Below, piece after piece: positions 5,654 to 39,400 of a DNA stretch of 64,000 nt. A program made the position numbers and the translations under genes. The DNA is from Acholoe squamosa (taxonomy: Eukaryota; Annelida; Polychaeta; Phyllodocida; Polynoidae). Each line of letters opens with the position of its first letter. The first letter of the stretch is position 1. The stretch lies in NCBI GenBank assembly GCA_949317995.1, contig OX439040.1:60360089-60424088 (forward strand), written 5' to 3'. A model generated the notes under the pieces. It saw only the letters and a program-made list of their open reading frames with translations, searched no databases and had not been told where the DNA came from.

Positions 5654-6639
5654 TAGTTGCAAAACGGTTTAGTCTCACAGTGGACTTGGTAATCTGTGGA
5701 CCTACAACCTGTTTCTAACATACCTATGGGTCATTTCGTGGATTATGAAATCATAGATACCGATCTTAAAACAATTTGCCACTCAGGGAACAGTTCCCAC
5801 TAATTTAGTACAAATGTTTCGACTGGCTTGAAAGGGTTCTACCACACTGAAGGTCTACCATAATCATTAATGTTGCCATAAGGCAAACAACAGGTCCCAA
5901 CAGTGAATTCCTGATATGTCATGAGTAACAATTGTTATAGACATCGAAATTATGCATTCTGCCATGTCGAATTGGTGTCCTATTTATTCTCTTGTGGTTA
6001 CTTTAAGTTAATGATTTTGCACTTTATTTAGATCTATCTGTCCAATGTCATCAGTCTGAAAGCCTCTGAAAGTACACTCTTACTGCTGCCTAAGTACTGT
6101 GTGTCAGACTATCTAGTCATCTGCAGGTTAAAAGCTCCCACCTCTTGTGGTGTCCAAGGTGATCAGCTATGCACGTGATACATGAAGGTAGCTCTAATGT
6201 CTAGTGCCTTCACATTTAGCAGCTTGACTCGTTAAAAGGGTTAAAACACAGAGGGGTCAGGGATCACAACTAGTTTAACCCCTTCCATTTCCCATGCAAC
6301 TAATGAAGGGTGACCCTGTACAAACCCCCATGGTTTGTACAAGATAAGGTGATTTTAGCATATGGCACCCCCTATGGATATCTCAAAATAGAGAGCCATG
6401 GGGCATTTCTTAACTTCATTTTCAGATTCAGCACCCTCAAGTCATCTAATTGGTATGTCTCTGTTTTTTGTTGTTGGCCGCTGCACAGGGTTAATATATA
6501 TAGACATTGTTTCAGCCACGAAACCATTGTTAATATACCCATTTAGTAACTCCTAACCTAACTGCTGCCAAAATATGGGCACTCTCAATCAACATTAAAA
6601 ATCAACAGTGCCCTCACTATATAGACCAGACCTGTCCCA
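5654..6639. other. Gene-free stretch
   Basis: No gene or clear repeat is recognised. A short inverted repeat lies at about 6318-6341 (arms TGTACAAACC). The first bases, to about 5700, are the right flank paralogous to 52165-52200. Confidence 0.4.
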
Positions 6640-7306
6640 ATGCAATACAAGGCGGACATAAAAATAGCACTTGCTAATGGCTTGCTGACTTGCATTAAAG
6701 GATTTACTTAAGGGGCAGTCAGGGTTGTTGGGAGCTGGATGGTGACTAGGGGAGTGGTAGGCCAGTCAATTGAATGTCATGGAGCCTGCCCACCATGGTC
6801 CCTACTCCATCACTCTCTCAGTGTCTAAAGGGGTTCCATGAGACGTGTGCGTGCCTGAAAGCAAGGTCAACCCAAGAGGACGATGCACTACCCTCCACCG
6901 ATACTGGATCAGCTGAGAGAGTAAGAGAGAAGTTTACAAAGGGGCACATTGAATGGCTCTTTGATTAACCTTTTCGATAAAGGTGTGGTCAGTGGTGATA
7001 GCCTTTGGGTTCATTTTATCTTCAATGATAGTTTTATCTTTCAGGAGTTTAGCAACCCCATAGGATCAGCATAATGCATGAACCCCTGCATCTAAAATGA
7101 GTATACTGCAAAAATTACTTTCACCACCTCCCCTGACAAAATGAGAGCTGCCCACCAAACTACACATCTATATTATAGAGTTGCGACAGACAGATCCTCC
7201 AGCTCATAGAAGGTCAATGATGCTCGCGGCCTATACTCCTATACAGTGCAGTATGCCATAGACATACAAGGAGAATTATTATTCAGTACATAAAAACATG
7301 CCAAGT

Positions 7307-27538: not shown

Positions 27539-28886
27539 GGCCATGGTTACCATGGAGGATGCCAGCCACCATCAGGCTCCCACAGGGGGCTTGTCAACAC
27601 ATGATATCACTACTACTGGTTATTTCATAGGTTGTAGGGGCAGGCTTAGGGAGAGAGTATTGGGGTCAAGGAGCAACTTCTTGTTGTGAATAGCGTCAAA
27701 TTGGACAGCACACAATGGTTAGACATTTACACCCCAAGTCCCCCCCCTGCATCTCTGTAGAGTTGTTGTTTTTATGCAGAAGCTGTATCACAGTATGCAC
27801 AGGACAGCCACCGGGTGGCATCAGTCTGGTTACATTATGCCTTCTACTTGGCTAGCTGTCACCCACCTCCAGTTTCCCACCACACAGGCCCTTCCCAAGG
27901 TAAATTAACAAATGTTGTCTGCCTGCTGTGCTGAGTGACATTGGGCCTAGCAGTTGGGCTTTTTAAGGAGAGAGTGTCCCAAATGGAAAGGATGCTAGGC
28001 CTGATGAGAAGTGAGTGAGCATACACAGAGAAGCTCCATCATACACTGCGCATGTGTGAGGTTCCTTTGGCTTCCGGCGATGGCTTTTTGCTGATGTATA
28101 TACAGCACGATGGGCATGGCGTGAAGAGAGTTGGCACAGGATGTGGCAAACATCCGGTTATGGTGGGGAGGAGATGGAGTGGGCAATGAGGGGATATGGT
28201 GCCTGCAAAGATGTTATAAAGGGCTGAGGTCAGGCATGAAGAAGTGTAAGGATGTTGAGATATGCCCCCTATGGGCCATCATAGGCCAGGGGCATCAATA
28301 TTCACATTTTAAGCCTACCAGACAACCCTATCTGCCTGTAAATCCCTAAAAGGTGGTAGTCTGAGATAAACAGTCATGCATTTGGTTATACATGGTTAGC
28401 AGATAATAACATCAGTGACAGTGATTGGAAAGGTGATGTATAAGATTAGGTTCTGCCTATGTGAACCAAGGATAAGATGGAGCTTACTACACTGCAAAAA
28501 TGGTGTTTAGATTTTAAACATGTTTAGGTCTAAACATGTTTAAAACCTAAACATATACGTCAGTTAGGTGTATCATCGACTACACATTTAGGAAAATAAC
28601 ACTTTTATTCTAAATACATAAACATTTTTGCTAAACATGTTCAGACCTTTAGAGTTTAAACAGTTGAATATTAGGTGTTTAGATTCAAACATCAATATGT
28701 TTAGATAATTGGATGTCAAATCCACACCAGGTAGCAGCACTACCTCTGAATGGACTATCTGTACACAGTTATAATCAATTGTTGTTACAAATATCCCCAA
28801 ACACCTTGTTTATCATAGTGTCATTTCATTAAATGTTATGAAAATAGACACAACAATAGAAAATTAACTAAATTCAACTTTGGGTG

Positions 28887-28897
28887 AACATGGCGGC
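28887..28897 (+). promoter_or_regulatory. YY1-like site at the LINE 5' end
   Basis: AACATGGCGGC at +7 to +17 of the LINE fits the YY1 consensus (AANATGGCGGC). Human L1 carries a YY1 site in the same position, where it directs accurate start of transcription. The match supports 28881 as a true, untruncated 5' end. Confidence 0.5.
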
Positions 28898-29019
28898 GTT
28901 GGGTTAGCAGCGGTGAGCGACAGGGGGACTGTATTTTCCCAAAATTATCAGTGTTCAAAGACAGAAGAACATTTGAAACTTTGATAAATAACTAGTTAAA
29001 GTGTCGCACTATTGATATC

Positions 29020-30387
29020 ATGGCAAACCAAGGACCTAGATCCCGTACCAAGAAGAAGACAATGGATTTAATTCCACAAGAGGCTTCGATAAAAGAGGTG
29101 ATTGCAGCTGTCAACGCCATGGATAAAAGGTTGCTGTCAGTGGAGGAAACACAAACATACATGCAATCTAACATCGAAGAAATTAGAGAATCCATTGACG
29201 GTTTAAACCAGACGACATCTAATATCAATGAGACCCTTGACAGTATAAAAGGAAGACTCACATCATCTGAAGGGACTATGGAAGCCATGTCAAAGGCAAT
29301 CTCGGAAACTGGAGACGCCATTAAAATCCAGAATGACAGTGTCAAATCCCAAACGGCCCTACTACTCCAACACACAAAAAAATTCGATAGAATGGACCAA
29401 GACATCAAGAAAAAAATCCTAATAATTAAAGGACTTGAAGAAAGCAAGGATGAAGATATTTCGGTCAAGATTGCTCAATTTCTGAGAGATATTAAATTTA
29501 ATCAGGGATTGGAATGTGTAGATTCTTGCAGTCGCGAGGGGCCGGAAACACTGATCCAAGATGGCGACCACCAGGGCGTAAACAAACCAAGACACAGGCA
29601 GGTACGAGTTATTTTCCGAAATATCTACACCAAACCCAAGATTATGAGGAATTTGAAGTATCTGAAGGGTAAAACACTATACAAGTTCGTATCTGTGGGC
29701 GATGAATTGAATGAAACCGAGCAGAAAGACATCAATGACCTCCGTGCCATGTACTACCTTGCGAAGAAACTCAACTACAACGTTCAGCTCAGGCAAAGAT
29801 TCCTCATCCTGGAAAAGAAGACTATATATCCTTCTCAGCTAAACCAAATGCCTTACCAAGATCTTACCATGCAGAAAGCTATGGAAGCCACTACCCCGGA
29901 TGGTTTAATGTTTAAGTCGAAACATCACATGCTCTCCAACTTATACGACTGTAGCCTAAAATATCGAGGAGTGGAGTACAACAGCGCTGAACAGGCCTAC
30001 CAAGCCACCAAGGCTCGTACATGTAAACAACCTGACATAGCAGACAAAATTCTCCAGATGGACAATACCATAGAGATCATGTATGAGGGGAAAAAGGTCA
30101 AACCTACACCAGAATGGAATAAGGGAGCTGAAGCCATCATGGAGGAAATAATCACTGCAAAATTCTCCAACAAACACCTGAGGGAATACATAGTTTCTAC
30201 AAAAGGTATGACTCTATACGAAGCTAGCTATCATCCGATCTGGGGCGTCAAGTACCATTTTGGACAGGCCAACATGTGTAAAAGGGACAATATTAAAGGA
30301 GAGAATCTGCTTGGCTTCATCCTTACCAGAGTACGAGACAAGATCATTAACGAGGATACAGGCAAAGACGTCGAGCAACCCGTATGA
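29020..30387 (+). CDS. LINE ORF1 protein: coiled coil, L1-type RNA-binding core and C-terminal NADAR domain
   Basis: 455 residues from ATG to TGA, intact. Residues 1-15 are basic (RSRTKKK). Residues 20-130 look like a coiled coil with heptad-like leucines and many charged residues. Residues 131-270 match the RNA-binding core and C-terminal region of L1-type ORF1 proteins (KILIIKGLEES, then RVIFRN, then DELNETEQKDIND and RQRFLILE). Residues 296-442 are a NADAR/YbiA-like domain: LSNLYD (305-310), SAEQAYQATKA (322-332), WG (408-409), GENLLG (427-432), RVRD (437-440). Family members act on ADP-ribose derivatives, including ADP-ribosyl-guanine. The usual Asp before the WG pair is absent (SYHPIWG), so activity is uncertain. 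The role in the element is inference; the first two regions should bind element RNA. Confidence 0.85.
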   Translation: MANQGPRSRTKKKTMDLIPQEASIKEVIAAVNAMDKRLLSVEETQTYMQSNIEEIRESIDGLNQTTSNINETLDSIKGRLTSSEGTMEAMSKAISETGDAIKIQNDSVKSQTALLLQHTKKFDRMDQDIKKKILIIKGLEESKDEDISVKIAQFLRDIKFNQGLECVDSCSREGPETLIQDGDHQGVNKPRHRQVRVIFRNIYTKPKIMRNLKYLKGKTLYKFVSVGDELNETEQKDINDLRAMYYLAKKLNYNVQLRQRFLILEKKTIYPSQLNQMPYQDLTMQKAMEATTPDGLMFKSKHHMLSNLYDCSLKYRGVEYNSAEQAYQATKARTCKQPDIADKILQMDNTIEIMYEGKKVKPTPEWNKGAEAIMEEIITAKFSNKHLREYIVSTKGMTLYEASYHPIWGVKYHFGQANMCKRDNIKGENLLGFILTRVRDKIINEDTGKDVEQPV

Positions 30388-30710
30388 GCTGTACTTACAG
30401 ACCTAGCAAAGGAAAATGAACTAAATTTTCTGTGTGACATCGTACACAAATTTGTATAATTATTATTTTTTGAATTGGGAAAATACGGAAAACCCTAAGT
30501 GATATCTGCTATAACTGTATTAATTTATATCGTAGGTAGCCATAAGTGCTGTAAACCTATGATGGGAGGGGGGCTAGATTACTTTTGGTATAAAAAAAGA
30601 AGGGATATCATAAATTGGATTACAGAGGATAATGTACATACATGGAAAAATTGTACCGGTATATTTGTCTCTCTATTATCCATGTTTATAATAAGTAGAA
30701 TTTTACTAAT
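30388..30710 (+). other. LINE inter-ORF spacer
   Basis: 323 bases between the ORF1 stop and the ORF2 ATG. An in-frame TAG at 30696 fixes the ORF2 start at 30711 or later. No internal promoter or ribosome-entry structure was recognised. Confidence 0.6.
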
Positions 30711-31073
30711 ATGCAAGTAAATAAGGAACTTAAATCCAAGTTTGAGAAAGGCTTCTCTGTGGTACACTTAAATACTCGCAGCATAAGAAACAAATTTACA
30801 GGATTAAAAGAGGAACTATCTGATTGTAACATTGATATTGTACTTTTCTCTGAAACATGGTTAAACTCATCAGACTGTTCGGATATGTATAAGTTTCCAA
30901 GGTATAACTTATTTAGACTCGATAGAATTAGTATATTTAGGGGTGGAGGACTCTGTGCCCACGTAGATGAAGCTATATCATGTACAAATGAGAAATTTGG
31001 CTTTTTAAACCGAACCAATAAGGATATCGAAATACAATGGTTATTCTCTATAAAAGGTTCAAGCAAAAAGGCA

Positions 31074-31077
31074 ATAA
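31074..31077. repeat. ATAA target-site duplication, left copy
   Basis: ATAA directly precedes the insert and is repeated at 33429-33432 directly after it. Counting it once keeps the ORF2 frame in phase. Confidence 0.85.
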
Positions 31078-33428
31078 GGGTCAGTGTCAGAATAAGTGTA
31101 CAAAACCAGGAAAACCATGGTTGTTGGCCTTTATGCAGCCATAGAATAAATTATGCTTATCCAATCTTGTCTTCCATGGTCTCATCTTACAGAAGACATT
31201 CTAGCCTTTCAGAAAAATATCCATTTGTGTCTGTCGGGTAAAAATTCTTTGAGTTAGGGTGACCCAAAGTCCCAAAATCACTAAAAATTCTGTTTTTTTG
31301 CAGTTTATGTCATTTTGCACATGTCCTATTGTCCACTCAAAGACTAGAAACCCATCCAAAATTGCCTGTGGTATTAGGCATATATTAGGCCTACACTATT
31401 TATGTCAGTTTAGGTGGATGTTGATTGAGATTTTTTTACTATGGTCACTCATGTGTGGAATTTTACTCTTCGAGGCGTCTGTGACAATAACTCTTAGGTC
31501 AGAATAACTCTATCAATAATAGTGATATAATGTCTCTATTACATGTCACATAAAGAACTTATAAAGGGGTGAAGTTGGTAAAAAAATTTTAGCCATCGGT
31601 CAAATGGTCCCTGATTTATGGGTCAGAATGTCCATGTGGACTGGGTTTTCGTCACAGACGCCTCAACTAGATGTTATAATGTTGCTAATTTATTTAAGTA
31701 TCTATTTGTGTTTCTTACATGTCATATCAACCATCACAGCCAGCTTATCAATTCTGACAAGCATTGGTAGGCTGTGGGCCTCCAGTGTAGCATTTTGAGT
31801 ACCATTTCTCATATAGGGGGTTTTCGTCACAGACGCCTCACGATTTTGTTTATTGCAAAGTCAGGCTCATCTGCTGTTACCCAGTGGAAGTCAATTACTT
31901 GGGAGAGCTTTGTTTTTGTCAAATAAGTGTTACAACTGGTTGTTTATCAAAGATTTTTTGAAGATTCTCTGCAGACTTTGACAAATTTTGCTATCAAAGT
32001 TTAGGAATCCGATCAAACTAGTACTTGCTGATGCGGTTAAATTTGGTTAATTTGGTCTTATTTTGATGAAAATAGTATAGCTTGATTGAATCATCAAGCC
32101 TCTTGGACTTGGCAGGTGGCTGCCATGTTGATTTTGGGCGATATTTGATACAGACTCATATTCGTGAGGCGTCTGTGACGAAAACTCCTGTTGAACAAAA
32201 TTCTCTCTGGCGAGCACCATATGCTGCCCTAAGGTCAAAAATGGATTGAAATGTGCAGAAATGATGTGCCCCAATTATTTTAGGGCATTTGCTACATGTT
32301 CTGTTGATTTTATTCAAGAGTTGGTGGGTCTAAAATTGTGTTTGACCTAAAATTGCCTCAAATTGCTCCAGAAATTCCTACCTGTACATGAAATGAGGGT
32401 ATTCAATTGACTTTTCTGTGGTTGATATGATGTTCTGTACTCCTCTTCATCAATTGTGTGTGTTATAATTAAAATCCCATTACTTATTTGGCCACAACAA
32501 GCACCAAAGCGCAGAAATGAGTTTTCGTCACAGACGCCTCCGACAGAAATGAAATTCTGTTCTTGTAATCTTGCAAAGCATCATCTATACTATATTTATT
32601 CTTGGTAGACTATGATACATTATTATTCAATGTCCTGACCTAAAATAATTACATTTCCAGCATATTTATCTAAATTTATTGCATTTTTAGTTTTCGTCAC
32701 AGACGCCTCATTTCAACATTTTCCCCCAAAAAAAATATTTTCAGTCCATATAACCAACTAATTCTCTACCACAAGATGCCCCTAGCCTAAGTCCATTTTG
32801 GTACAGAGCAGCTTTGCAATTGCTGAAAAAAACCTTTTGGGGGCCCTTTTACCTGTGTGAAATTTGGATTTTCCTCATTTTTTTCCACTTCGGCAGACAT
32901 TCAACACTCAAGGGTACAAAATTGGTTTTAGTGAGGCCTCTACTGTTTTATTTTCTCCAAACTAGACAGCATAAGGATTAGTTAGAGCAATTCTGGAGCT
33001 AATCAGTGCATTATTGACAGAACTACAGTAAAGTTAGTGATTTGAAGATAAAATTGTCCAATTTTTCAATATTTTGATAATTATGTCCGGGCTCTCACAA
33101 AAAATTTTTAAAGATACAGTTTTGCATTCTTGTATGCTTAATCCAGTTAGTAATAGCTACTTGCAGCCCAAATTTCAAGTTGCTGTGATTGTCCTAACTT
33201 GTTTTAGAGCAATCCTAGAGTTTTCGTCACAGACGCCTCACAAAATTCGCTGATATCCAGTTGGCCATGAATAAAAACTGCAGTTCTTGGAGGAAGCCAG
33301 TCCACCAGGGGTTTTCATATGGCCAAGATGTTGCATTATCAATATAATACACTTTTGTAATGTTATCTTGACTTTTATCTTTCTGTACTGTGTGCACCAG
33401 ATATGTGCACTTTTTCTGACATTCACCC
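31078..33428. mobile_element. 2351-bp non-autonomous DNA transposon inside LINE ORF2
   Basis: Terminal inverted repeats of 25 bases match at 21 positions: GGGTCAGTGTCAGAA at the left, TTCTGACATTCACCC at the right. ATAA flanks both sides. Four-base duplications occur in several superfamilies (Chapaev, Sola, Ginger among them), so I do not assign one. No frame longer than about 80 codons and no transposase motif is present. Inside, the 14-mer GTCACAGACGCCTC occurs seven times at near-regular spacing on both strands; the rest is not obviously repetitive. It is younger than the LINE insertion. Confidence 0.88.
31472..33239. repeat. Seven dispersed copies of a 14-20 base motif on a ~175-bp grid
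   Basis: GTCACAGACGCCTC lies on the plus strand at 31651, 31826, 32527, 32696 and 33226 and on the minus strand at 31472 and 32166. Six of the seven extend to the identical 20-mer GTTTTCGTCACAGACGCCTC; the copy at 31472 differs upstream. Start-to-start distances are 179, 175, 340, 361, 169 and 530, close to 1, 1, 2, 2, 1 and 3 times 175. Confidence 0.95.
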
Positions 33429-35894
33429 ATAATCTGTAATGTATATAGACCACCATCTGGAAACTTGACAAATTTTTGTAATATTATTCAAGCATTATTT
33501 TTACAGATTGAAAATCCAGATTCCTATGAGATTTATGTACTTGGTGACTTTAATATAAATATAATAGGTAATACAAGAGAAAAAAGACAATTGTACGAAA
33601 CTTTTGATAATTTTCATCTAACCCAATTAGTAAATCAAGTAACAACTTCTTCAGGCTCCAACTCATGTATCGACTTAATTTTCACAAACTGTACTGGAAT
33701 TATTTCGTCTGGTCCCCTCAATATTCACCTATCTGATCATCTTCCTGTACATATATTAAAAGGAAACCAATATGTTAAGCAAGGTTTCAGGAGTTTCTTG
33801 GGAAGATCGTATAGAAACTTTAATAAGGAAAAATATATACTTGACCTGACAAACTGTAACTGGGCTTACTTTGATAATAGCACCGATCCTACAGAATGCT
33901 GGGATATCCTGGTTAATTATATGAAATATATGCTAGATATCCAATATCCAGTAAAGAAATTTAAGATAAAAGATAAATCAAGTCCATGGATGACAAATGA
34001 ATTGTTAGAACGTATTAATGATAAAAATGTACTATTAAAAGAGGCTAGACGAAACTTGGATATTATATCATGGCACCAAGCCAGAGTATCTCGAAATATT
34101 GTAAACCGTGAGGTACAGCAAGCAAAAGAAGAATATTATAATAATCTATCTGAAGTCTATAAGAAAGATTCCAAAAAATTCTGGACTACTATGAAAGAAG
34201 TATTGCCTAATAACAAAGGAAAATCGAAAACAATTAACTTAGTAGATGATACTGGTCAAACTATTACTCTGGAAGACACGTCCACGTACATAAATAACTT
34301 TTTTGCAGATATAGGGCCTAGGCTTGCTAGACTTCATGATACAGAATTTTTATTCAAAGGACAAAGATGTGTAATGGATATGCCTGATATGTCGTTTACT
34401 GATGAAGAAATTATTAAATGTTTAGAAGATATAGATGTATCAAAATCATCCTCTATTGAATACTTACCTACTAATATTTTTAAGCTAGCTGTGATGAAAT
34501 TCTCTGATAAATTTATAAAAATTATAAATTTGATTACACAAACTGGTGTTATACCTGATAGCTGGAAAGTTGCCACGGTCACTCCTCTACCTAAAGGTGG
34601 AGATCCATCAAACGTATCTAATCTAAGACCCATCAGTGTATTACCTGTACCTGGTAAAATACTGGAACGTCTGATACATACCAAAATCAGCTCTCATTTG
34701 ACTTTACATAATATATTGTCTAAATTTCAAGGAGGATATCAAAAAAACAAATCGACTCTAGATACTATAACTAGTCTAGTGGATGATATACTAAAAAATC
34801 GGAACCAAAATAATATTACTTTGGCTGCATTTATTGATATAAAAAAAGCTTTTGATTCTGTTAATCATAATATCCTCTTGACTAAGCTGGAACAATACGG
34901 TATAAGAAATAGAAACCTTACGCTGATTGAAAACTACCTTTCTAGGAGACAGCAGTGCTCTGTGGCGAATCATGTAAGATCAGGGTATAAGAATTTAACA
35001 TGTGGGGTACCACAAGGGTCAATTTTGGGTCCTTTATTTTTCCTATTATATATTAATGACTGTATCTTAGAAGATGACACCCATAAAACAATGTTATATG
35101 CAGATGACTCAGTTTTATATGTATCAGGCAAAGACATAAATATCTTGCAAACCGAGCTAGAAAATGCTTTAAAAAATTTTTATTCTTGGTCTACAAGTAA
35201 TAAACTAACTATGAATGAAAACAAAACTAAAATTATGACCTTTGCCTCTTCAATAAAACTGAAAAATCTGAGAAAACCAAATATTATCATTAATAATAAA
35301 GCACTTATGAATGTATCTTCCTATAAGTATCTAGGAGTAACCCTAGACCCTGAATTGAAATTTAACATGTATCTACGCACAGTAATTAACAATGTAAGAT
35401 ATAAGTCGTTAATATTGTATAAAACTCGAAAATATATGTCTCATGAAGCAAGATTAAGAATGTACAAGATGCATATACTACCATTAATAGATTACTGTGA
35501 TATATTGTATAACGAGGCTAAAGCTGACTACCTGTTAGAACTACAACATTTACAAAGTAAATGCCTGAAAACTTGCTTTGATTATCATATATTAACACCT
35601 ACTCATACTGTACACAATAAGGCTAATTTACCTACGTTAACATCTAGGAGAGTCTATCATATCAAACTTGCGGCCCACAAGAGATCATGTAATAATGATT
35701 TTATAGAGACCAAGGTCAGAGAAACACGGTTAGCTGCTGCGCCTGTACTAAAATACCAAAAAATAAACTGTAAATCATATGAAACATCACCAGAAGTCAA
35801 ATGCGCTCAAACTTGGAATAGATTACCAATAGAAATTAGAAATATTAAAGACAGGGACAAATTTAAACTGGAGTGTAAAAAAGAATTGCAATAA

Positions 35895-36427
35895 GTTTAA
35901 TAAGCTCTAAAATATCAATCAATTATGCATTGTATAGTGTCTATACATGATTCTATATCCTCTGTAAAAATTATTGACTTTATAATCATGTGATATGTTT
36001 TTGGGGGAGGGCATTCGTCATTATAAAATTTTTAAAGTAGAGAATAATGCTGCTGTTCAAATATATAATGCTATTCTACCATCTGTGTATTCTATGAATG
36101 GTATATGTACTTTTTTTCATGGCTTGGCCGAGACAACATCCTATGGATGATGGTCAGTCATTAACTTGATAGCCACTAAGAATGTAGTTTTCCTTATATA
36201 TAATTATCAAATCTGTCAAATGGTTACGTGGTATTTATCATATTTCCTCACTAAATCGATAAAAATTATTTCAATTATTATACTCGAATGTAATTATCAA
36301 AGCTGTCAAACGGTTATGTGGTATTTATCATATATCTTATCAAAACAAGGAAATTTTTTCAATTTATGTACTCGAATGAAATGAATGATATCTTTGGCTA
36401 AATAAAGTTTAAATTGTTTCAAAAAAA
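35895..36427 (+). other. LINE 3' UTR with an internal direct repeat
   Basis: About 533 bases. The stretch 36196-36290 is repeated, diverged, at 36291-36380 (shared TAATTATCAAA, CTGTCAAA and GTGGTATTTATCATAT). AATAAA at 36401-36406 and nine A at 36421-36429 close the element (the last two A may belong to the target duplication). Confidence 0.7.
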
Positions 36428-39400
36428 AACTTACACCACCATCATTACCATAAAATAATCAATGAGCTCCATGACTTACACCTATGTCATGTTATTTTGT
36501 AAAGTATAAAGTAATGTGCTTCTTGCCAACCTGTTGTACTTCCTCAAGTCTCCTATTCTAATGCAGTGTGTACATATATATGTATATAGCTGTGGCTGAC
36601 ATCTTTGAAGACTTTGCAGTGCAAATACATGCTGATGTCCTCCAGTAAATGAGAAAACAAACAAAAGATATTTTTTTTTAATGGACACAATGTCTGCAAA
36701 CCCTTACTTTCCACCAAATCACTTAGACATCTAAACTCAAAAATTCATAAACATCTAAACATAAAATTTCATCCATATCTAAACACAAATTTTGAACCTA
36801 AACACCTAGGTTTCTAAACACTTGAGCTAAGCACATTGTTTGGCTAAACATGTTTAGGAAATTAATATGATTACAAAAATGTTGCAAGAACATGTTTAGA
36901 ATTGTGTTTAGGATCTAAACAGCATTTTTGCAGTGTAAGTAATCATGTGGGATGTAATACGGTTGGTTATATTAGCCATTCAGAGACTCAAAACCTGCTG
37001 ACAGGCCTTGCCAAAAGGGAAACATGAACCCCCTAAAATGAACTTTATCTTTATACTTTTATATTTTTTATCAACTGAGACAGAAAATGGAGTTTTACAC
37101 ATCAAAACGTGCATGTTTCGTCTGTAACAAATATAGGAGTATTGGGTGAATACGAGAGGAAACTTTTGGCAAGACCCTCCTGTTATCTTGCTTTTATGTC
37201 CGCTGGGTATTCTGAATTCTATATATTGTACAAATCTCCGTCGCCTGCCCCTCCCATTTTACCCACTTTATTTCATGCTTTGCTTGCTGCATTCGTTTGT
37301 TGTGCCATTAAGTTTATACATGTACATTCATCTGTCTTTCTACCTTTCTCCCCATTCAATATAATCATGGAAATGAAATAATTTCCCTCTGCATTTAACT
37401 ATTCTAGGATGACACATTAATACCTAAAGGTCTCATGCACCATTGTTGTTTGATACACCAGGTGGCCATTTCTAAACAACTGCACCTTCCAAGTAATACT
37501 ATATTCCCATAGGAATAGCATTGGGTTTTCAAGTTGTAGGGCTAATCAAACTTTTAGGAGTAGGTCATTATGATAGGCTACCTGGTAATTTGTTTGCATT
37601 CAACATCATGCTGAAACAAAATCATCACACTGACCATGCTCAAGCAGCAAGACCCATAATACAGGAAGCAGCAAGCTTAATGTCTTGCCTGGCTAGCACC
37701 CTTATTTTTAATTCATGACATTATGTCATAATGGCACGACTATAGACAAAAAGGACATCAACCGTCATGTCAAGCACGCAGTTATGTCAGCAAGTTTTGG
37801 CAGCTAGCTCCCTTTTCACACTAAGTAGCCATTTACAAAACATTAACGCTGGCAGTTAGCAACACCTTACAACCTGCCTGTATGGAACACATGGGGCCTG
37901 AACATTGTGCCAATATCCAAGCCTCTGCATGCTTTAAGGTCTGTTAGTCCACAGGCTTTAAATAAGGAATTGGCAGGAAAATCTATTTATAGGTGCTCTA
38001 CAGATACCTCTTTCCATCCAGTGGCATCTTCTATTTTCAAACACATTTGTATATAAACTGAAGCACAAATTGTGCCTTGCCCTGCTACATTAGATAAGGT
38101 ACTGAGGAAAGCTAATCCCTAGAACTATAATGCATACAGTAACTAGAATACTCCTTCATGCCAACATTGAATGTTGATTATTCATATTCAACACAACCAG
38201 CCTGGTGAATTTAAAGTTCAAAATAAATGCATAGTGCTCCACACCTGTATATTGTATTGTAAATTAATTTTGTGGGAACACAGACAGGAATTTCCCAGAG
38301 GTCATTCTCTATCAAATAATATTGTTTTATCCTGATAGTATACATGCATTCTCATGCCTTCTTCAAAGATATTGGTATAAAATGACATTAGCCTAGACAT
38401 AGCCTGACTCTTAATTTATGAATGTTTTTTTTTCTTGGGAAAAAGTTTAAAAGAAAGATAGTGCAGACAATGGAGGATAAAGATGATGCATTTATAAAAA
38501 AAAAAAAGATGAGGAATTCTGCCCTTGAAGTTACTATATGCTTCAGACATGTTTGTACATAGAAGAAATACCATTGTCACTTGCATCTTATAACTGAGTT
38601 TCTAATGAATTCTGTTCCACTAGTACCTATTAGTAAGACATTAAATAATTATTCCAGTCTGAGGTCCTAATTGCTGATATGGATATTATCTTCCCAGATA
38701 TCAAATTGATGTACAATTGCATTTCATATGGATGCTTAACTATGGATTTGTTAGAATTTGAGGCTGGTATCATTGTCCCAATCACAATACCAGGAGTTGT
38801 CTTTTCATTGATGATATTATCATTCTTAGTCACTGGGAATGTATAACTATGATGAGTCAGTATGAAGCGTGTAGCACTGGCAAGTCAGGCCTACTGGGTT
38901 AGCCCCGAGTAGGCTCACAATAGGATTGTATGTGACGTTCTTGTTTTTAGTTATATTGACTAAGTGCTTCAATTACCGCTTTGCCAAAAGACCTGTATTC
39001 CTTTGGTATGTCCATGCATTAGGGCCATCATTCTATTCTGACATTTTAAAATTGGACCCTATACTGAAGGTCACACATCATATTATGCCTACCCCTTATA
39101 GAGACCAACATGGATTCCACAGACACTGGAGCACCCTTTGCCACATTGAGCAGTAGATGTGCAGGCTTTTCTGAGGACATGATAGGAAGTAGTGGTTTAT
39201 GTGTCCTCTAGTGCATCTTTTACATCCCTGCTCTCCTGCTGCTGCAGCACTTCTCTTATTTAATGCCAAGACCGAAGTTCCAGTCTATATGACCAGTTAC
39301 ATTATTCTTAGAATTTAATACCTTAAGGACCAGTTAATGGTTCGACGAGAGCAGACAGCTACTATCAAGTTATTTCAACCATTAGAGTTGGACATTACTA

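Follow-up and report, generated by a model that had tools for sequence, protein, structure and literature searches.

A NADAR domain of YbiA type in the ORF1 protein of a non-LTR retrotransposon family

The closest described systems are retroelements in which a NADAR domain has been noticed before. According to the available part of a 2025 Ectocarpus paper, the Pol of Gypsy elements in Ectocarpus contains such a domain, as does, according to Repbase, the ORF1 of several Crassostrea gigas Tx1 LINE families, and the suggestion is made there that NADAR processes RNA intermediates (PMC12477816). The Gypsy elements share with the present case the capture of a NADAR by a retroelement, but they are LTR elements with the domain at another place, in the polyprotein. 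The oyster elements likewise have a YbiA-family NADAR in a non-LTR ORF1, so that the question whether this fusion was already described is answered by one sentence on Crassostrea gigas Tx1 LINEs; the available text of that account is without selection, abundance or pocket analysis (PMC12477816). No other report of a NADAR-retrotransposon fusion was found among the matches listed in literature outside subscription journals and preprints; the main text of PMC4120745, on ORF1 types, has 0 occurrences of NADAR, and there is none in the main text of PMC11203168, on gastropod LINEs. New here are a reverse transcriptase (RT) partner that is not L1-like, the conservation of the pocket, and selection.

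Both NADAR subfamilies hydrolyse guanine-ADP-ribose, and changes at the equivalents of E125 and K50 of the reference 8BAU (P. nicotianae NADAR with ADP-ribose) impair hydrolysis, as stated in the accessible part of PMC11543638. From the portion of PMC11125620 at hand, the characterised NADARs of E. coli and phages all keep hydrolytic activity, NADARs outside DarT operons are inefficient against DarT toxicity in cells, and physiological roles outside toxin operons, animals included, are stated to be unclear. RNA viruses as well as phages carry NADARs (PMC9503650). The DarT1-linked NADARs (DarG1, BC4488 type) belong to the same superfamily and are demonstrated guanine-ADP-ribose hydrolases; they have a catalytic Asp and a toxin partner, whereas the domain described here has a Glu and no such partner in its element.

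The window, i.e. the whole stretch of 64,000 nucleotides that was analysed, contains a LINE copy, recognizable by an ORF1 followed by an ORF2 with endonuclease and RT and by an A-rich 3' end. Its features are as follows.

28886..36430, + strand: LINE copy from 5' end to A-rich 3' end, including a later insert of 2351 bp
29020..30387, + strand: ORF1 of 455 residues, a single open frame with coiled coil, core and NADAR
29020..29403, + strand: residues 1-128, a predicted coiled coil (numerous coiled-coil families and chains match weakly)
29404..29895, + strand: core, residues 129-292, possibly an L1-type RRM plus CTD (hhalign to the core of L011/L015)
29917..30345, + strand: NADAR domain, residues 300-442 (PF08719, E=2.9e-26)
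30711..31077, + strand: 5' part of ORF2 with the endonuclease start (weak Exo_endo_phos match, E=0.13; homologous to the endonuclease start of family copies)
31078..33428, no strand: 2351-bp insert within the endonuclease region (breakpoints 31077/33429 in L024-L027 and L029)
33429..35894, + strand: remainder of ORF2 with the reverse transcriptase (RVT_1 at about 34593-35345, E=4.1e-36)

All nine family copies compared by blastn begin to align at 28881-28890, and at the other end the matches stop at 36428-36429 in two family copies, next to an A run. ORF2 also matches Exo_endo_phos_2 at E=7.6e-6, just below the Pfam cut-off of that family. With its endonuclease region split by the insert, the copy is no longer intact, although ORF1 remains an open frame; five family copies (L024-L027, L029) have the uninterrupted junction, and in L029-L035 the ORF2 frame continues across the insert site. 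The insert has, by eye, imperfect terminal inverted repeats of about 19 bp starting with GGGT and an ATAA flank, as well as a motif of about 20 nt, GTTTTCGTCACAGACGCCTCA, in seven copies (five direct, two inverted), and resembles a DNA transposon that lacks a long ORF. On either side of the LINE, 8.4 kb apart, 33-nt inverted repeats (28488-28520 and 36905-36937) are 91% complementary; given these repeats, the LINE seems to have inserted within an older inverted-repeat element.

The earlier note had claimed, from the letters alone, a NADAR domain fused to a LINE ORF1 protein, and had named a Pfam profile search as a check. PF08719 scores 93.1 bits on ORF1, where the cut-off is 35.1 (E=2.9e-26), with an endonuclease-RT ORF2 downstream, which bears out both the fusion and the claimed position; no other ORF1 region has a Pfam match over the cut-off. 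On its own, the window NADAR reaches PDB entry 8BAU only at E=0.0017 (phmmer), while an alignment of 12 NADARs from this genome finds 8BAU at 1.6e-26 and E. coli YbiA (2B3W) at 1.5e-21. A coiled coil in the N-terminal part, also proposed in the earlier note, agrees with resemblance through many weak Pfam and PDB coiled-coil matches, the Pfam ones all being below cut-off. Its third assignment, an L1-type RNA-binding core, could not be confirmed: the core has no Transposase_22 or RRM match in Pfam and no PDB match, and what speaks for it is a profile similarity to the ORF1 core in L011/L015, whose RT is L1-like (hhalign probability 97.2, E=4.3e-11, the target profile consisting of two sequences). 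PF02994 has no match in the genome, and since 14 control genomes are equally silent, this is uninformative. The similarity suggests that these elements (class C below) and those of the window type (class A) have a homologous ORF1 core, and the window core is probably RNA-binding. Among the CR1/L2 ORF1 types I-V, the coiled coil plus core may resemble type II, and ORF1 modules have been swapped between clades, as described in the available part of PMC4120745, with no NADAR in its main text.

NADAR-ORF1s occur with three very different RTs. Class A comprises the window element, L012-L014 and L018-L028, whose RTs are alike (phmmer). Class C comprises L011 and L015; the L011 RT matches LINE-1 ORF2 chains at 6.8e-68. 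Chain 8c8j, which we take to be a LINE-1 RT, is found at 5.8e-68 with the L011 RT as against 1.5e-12 with that of the window. The window RT matches R2 at 2.6e-11, and chains labelled LINE-1 ORF2 are not among the matches listed for it. Judged by these comparisons, it is not L1-like and falls outside the Tx1/L1 group; by its motifs it is presumably CR1/L2-like. In this it differs from the oyster Tx1 LINEs, while the class C loci look like the oyster kind, a likeness drawn by description only and from the available part of PMC12477816. Class B (L009, L010, L016, L017) is set apart, with the L010 RT matching LINE-1 at 2e-26 and with ORF1 frames of 729 (L009), 774 (L016), 566 (L017) and 287 (L010) residues. 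In L009, the ORF1 stretch after the NADAR (6473-6982, - strand) has a weak, sub-cut-off carbohydrate-esterase match (SASA, E=0.002). L004-L008, read over 3.4 kb each with the RT out of view, were placed by NADAR likeness alone in class A, except L007 in class C; L003, split by a stop, was left out of the classes.

In a NADAR tree (60 of 111 rows, with most near-copies left out and 21 of 53 bacterial loci used) the LINE NADARs fall into separate lineages, with a long-branch warning, and the AU test does not reject a single clade (p=0.41 with all LINE rows, 0.40 with class A and 0.50 with classes A and B together). No relatives of the window NADAR or of L012 were found in viral contigs, and none of the window NADAR in bacterial genome contigs; 632 phage records contain something similar, all below 60% identity (tblastn), and the window RT has one distant, uninformative match in plasmids. 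The top two Pfam matches in the genome are stand-alone NADARs, L001 (1486-1944, - strand, on C17) and L002 (1477-1959, - strand, on C14). L001 is up to 59% identical to Paenibacillus proteins and is a host gene, its origin being possibly bacterial.

To place the domain within its family, the 1.48-Gb assembly (63 contigs) was searched, with frames counted through stops inside the match; absence among the matches listed means little in these searches. The best 150 of 3224 first-look candidates were scored with the Pfam NADAR profile, and 150 of 150 exceeded the cut-off; the corresponding numbers scored were the best 150 of 3198 candidates for the window NADAR, 142 of 19540 for the window RT, and 150 of 1626 for the ORF1 core (151 matches). 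Loci from the Pfam search were chosen by Pfam score, which biases them toward conserved domains. Twenty of them, 10 kb each (L009-L028), were selected to cover a range of scores, mostly with long frames; in every one an RT sequence follows the NADAR in the same orientation, its frame being broken in some.

Seen from the RT, 19 copies combine 85% identity or more with an ORF2 frame of 900 or longer, and for 17 of these a NADAR is listed 2.2-2.95 kb upstream; of the remaining two, one is cut inside the NADAR and one is without ORF1. For all RT copies of at least 85% identity a listed NADAR lies within 12 kb in 41 of 75, and at 75-84% identity in 17 of 67. Nine long-ORF2 RT copies without a NADAR among the matches of the Pfam search (L029-L037) were read upstream, and a NADAR ORF1 is present in eight, three with breaks and one ending a few residues early; in L037 there is no ORF1 in the 3.5 kb read. 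The same holds for L039, while L038 is cut inside the NADAR and L040 has lost, by internal deletion, the NADAR together with 75 residues at the start of the endonuclease region. Seen from the core, a listed NADAR lies about 0.3-0.65 kb downstream in 66 of 85 window-family cores of at least 69% identity (80 cores, 63 with a listed NADAR, plus five partial rows), and in 31 of the 32 with a frame of at least 400 residues. The sole exception, L117, has an internal deletion that fuses the core in frame to the C-terminal part of the RT and also removes endonuclease sequence, and there is one stop in its core. A Pfam NADAR match is present in 26 of 26 aligned class A ORF1s, members preselected as NADAR-bearing. 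The earlier note had regarded full-length copies without the domain as the outcome that would make it a one-off capture. No complete NADAR-less element is present among the copies read, L037-L040 and L117 all being incomplete; of the 19 window-family cores that lack a listed NADAR this check covered two, the other 17 having frames of 126-386 residues, and it covered some of the RT copies without one. In this genome the NADAR belongs to ORF1 as a fixed component kept by selection.

Some RT copies with ORF2 frames of 945-946 have identical scores (C8:59268084 and C15:4772758; C1:63190863, C9:24771100 and C17:25427431), which suggests recent activity of the family or segmental duplication. In L022 (4913-6307, - strand) two additional ORFs of 214 and 238 residues lie between the NADAR-ORF1 and ORF2, with no Pfam match up to E=1.

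Selection was estimated from ORF1s whose frames are intact, 21 of the window family and seven of the sister family; those with a broken or short frame were dropped. The median dN/dS of the NADAR is 0.075 in the window family (210 pairs, 21 copies) and 0.086 in the sister family (21 pairs, seven copies), compared to 0.068 and 0.072 for the core and 0.076 and 0.051 for the coiled coil, so that the constraint on the NADAR is about equal to that on the rest of ORF1 and no tighter. The short C-terminal tail is loose (0.30 and 0.90), and in the 13 closest pairs pN/pS of the NADAR is 0.12. Purifying selection on the pocket residues, another check put forward at the outset, was also found: E324, K331 and E401 are constant in 28 of 28 family and sister copies, while their codons vary synonymously (GAA/GAG 23/5, AAG/AAA 24/4 and GAA/GAG 21/7, respectively; n=28).

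The ADP-ribose contacts in 8BAU are E43, K50, R79, W89, R93, E125, D130 and W133 (PMC11543638, available part). Pocket sites were counted from alignments to 8BAU, in which the chain numbering is two higher, over 31 LINE NADAR rows (7 window family, 3 sister, 13 other class A, 4 class B, 4 class C).

29989..29991, + strand: Glu324, which corresponds to E43 (distal ribose) in the P. nicotianae protein; invariant in 31 of 31
30010..30012, + strand: Lys331, equivalent to K50, which contacts phosphate and is essential in E. coli C7 NADAR; the 31 rows have Lys 26 times and Arg 5 times
30115..30117, + strand: Trp366, equivalent to W89; invariant in 31 of 31
30220..30222, + strand: Glu401, equivalent to E125, the YbiA-type catalytic Glu (role from the available part of PMC11543638); invariant in 31 of 31
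30232..30234, + strand: His405, replacing D130; His in 22 and Asn in 6 of 28 family and sister copies

Compared to the free-standing enzymes 8BAU and YbiA, the window NADAR keeps E43, K50, W89, E125 and W133 of 8BAU and differs at D130, R79 (Lys) and R93. The usual Asp before the WG pair is indeed absent, as had been noticed beforehand, His405 standing in its place. Across the LINE NADARs, D130 is Asp in 21 of 31, with His or Asn in the ten of the window and sister families only; at W133, 19 rows have Trp and the other 12 have Phe, Tyr, Met or His; R79 and R93 vary, with Lys or Arg at R79 and Ala at R93 in the window family. In 29 bacterial, phage and stand-alone NADARs E43, K50, W89, E125, D130 and W133 are invariant and R93 varies. 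The eight contacts are more conserved than random column sets (p=0.002, 15 LINE representatives); for the four best of them p=0.0001 in the same representatives, but these were chosen after viewing the alignment. In the available text of PMC11125620 the YbiA subfamily is recognized by a Glu at the catalytic place of the last strand; E401 is such a Glu, rather than Asp or His, and the Asp that characterizes the BC4488/DarT1-linked type at this place is lacking. Conservation of E43 alone is little informative, because in E. coli C7 NADAR Ala at the equivalent had a minor effect, although Gln inactivates; a K-to-R change in the same protein was active in vitro and lost cell rescue (PMC11543638, available part). 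The pattern fits an enzyme in which the pyrophosphate end of the pocket is altered, and does not by itself prove catalysis.

We propose that the ORF1 protein of this non-LTR family is a coiled-coil, probably RNA-binding protein with a C-terminal YbiA-type NADAR, a working hydrolase that protects copying; we consider this reading about equally likely to be right or wrong. Judged from its residues, the domain is most likely an active YbiA-type ADP-ribosyl hydrolase that would ride on the RNP of the element via ORF1p. Since LINE ORF1 proteins coat their own RNA, it may act on element RNA, cDNA or target site during target-primed reverse transcription. It would cleave ADP-ribose off guanine bases, or a similar N-glycosidic ADP-ribose adduct, and host ADP-ribosylation would thereby not stall copying. 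The idea of such a counter-defence, which would keep the nucleic acid of the element free of ADP-ribosylation, is appealing, since a clam has a guanine-directed transferase, CARP-1, and since RNA viruses and phages carry NADARs. Counted against the proposal is the loss of D130 and R93 in the window family; the poor protection given in cells against DarT by NADARs outside DarT operons would speak against counter-defence (PMC11125620, available part).

The substrate might instead be an RNA-end product or some small molecule (NAD-capped RNA, by-products of RNA repair, free derivatives of ADP-ribose), so that the NADAR would aid RNA processing, an alternative that we think unlikely but take seriously. 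It accords with the processing of RNA intermediates proposed in the available part of PMC12477816, and with SNA-3 NADARs, which function in nematode trans-splicing; NADARs also act in riboflavin metabolism, and by analogy with these roles other substrates are conceivable. Phage NADARs are argued to act mostly on soluble ADP-ribose derivatives, those of eukaryotic RNA viruses mainly on macromolecules (PMC9503650). However, the fusion to the element's own ORF1p suggests a macromolecular substrate in cis, and guanine-ADP-ribose in DNA is a biochemically demonstrated substrate (PMC11543638, available part).

The earlier note had also considered that the missing Asp could leave a binding-only module, in which the pocket docks ORF1 on ADP-ribosylated chromatin or RNP, e.g. 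PARP-marked breaks, for targeting without hydrolysis. The Asp is absent, together with R93, and ribose-holding glutamates would be expected to be conserved in a binder too. The objection is nevertheless weaker than feared, given the conservation of the catalytic site and because D130 makes a water-mediated contact in 8BAU and is kept in 21 other LINE NADARs (PMC11543638, available part, for the contact). E125 and a basic residue at K50 are each kept in 31 of 31, and the Asp equivalent of E125 is required for efficient catalysis, as reported in the same part of that paper. With both ribose-flanking glutamates and the basic residue kept, an enzyme is favoured over a dead binder, which we regard as distinctly improbable.

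A NADAR that is kept purely so that ORF1p can fold or assemble, or that came along as a passenger when ORF1 was swapped long ago, would agree with a dN/dS no lower than that of core and coiled coil, so that the fold could be what is selected, and with several non-contact residues that are invariant across the LINE NADARs as well. Named ADP-ribose contacts do, however, figure in the invariant columns across domains only 23-30% identical to that of the window (the sister at 53%), and we hold this explanation to be very unlikely. A one-off capture or chance match, for which nothing was found, is rejected with near certainty by the family-wide occurrence (31 of 32 long-frame cores and 17 of 19 long RT copies carry a listed NADAR).

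Returning to the proposed hydrolase, several LINE lineages in one, probably animal, genome may carry on ORF1 an active ADP-ribosyl-guanine hydrolase that erases host ADP-ribosylation from the RNA, cDNA or target site of the element, in parallel to the DarT/NADAR defence and counter-defence of bacteria and phages; this wider reading is tentative and on balance doubtful. A retroelement present in many copies, with its NADAR under strong purifying selection, provides a concrete setting for the role of such domains, and a testable system. The domain extends the known types of ORF1 domains, and its presence with unrelated RTs bears on ORF1 swapping. Finally, the retention of the catalytic residues by selection hints that genomes and their parasites may be engaged in a chemical contest which is so far unexplored.
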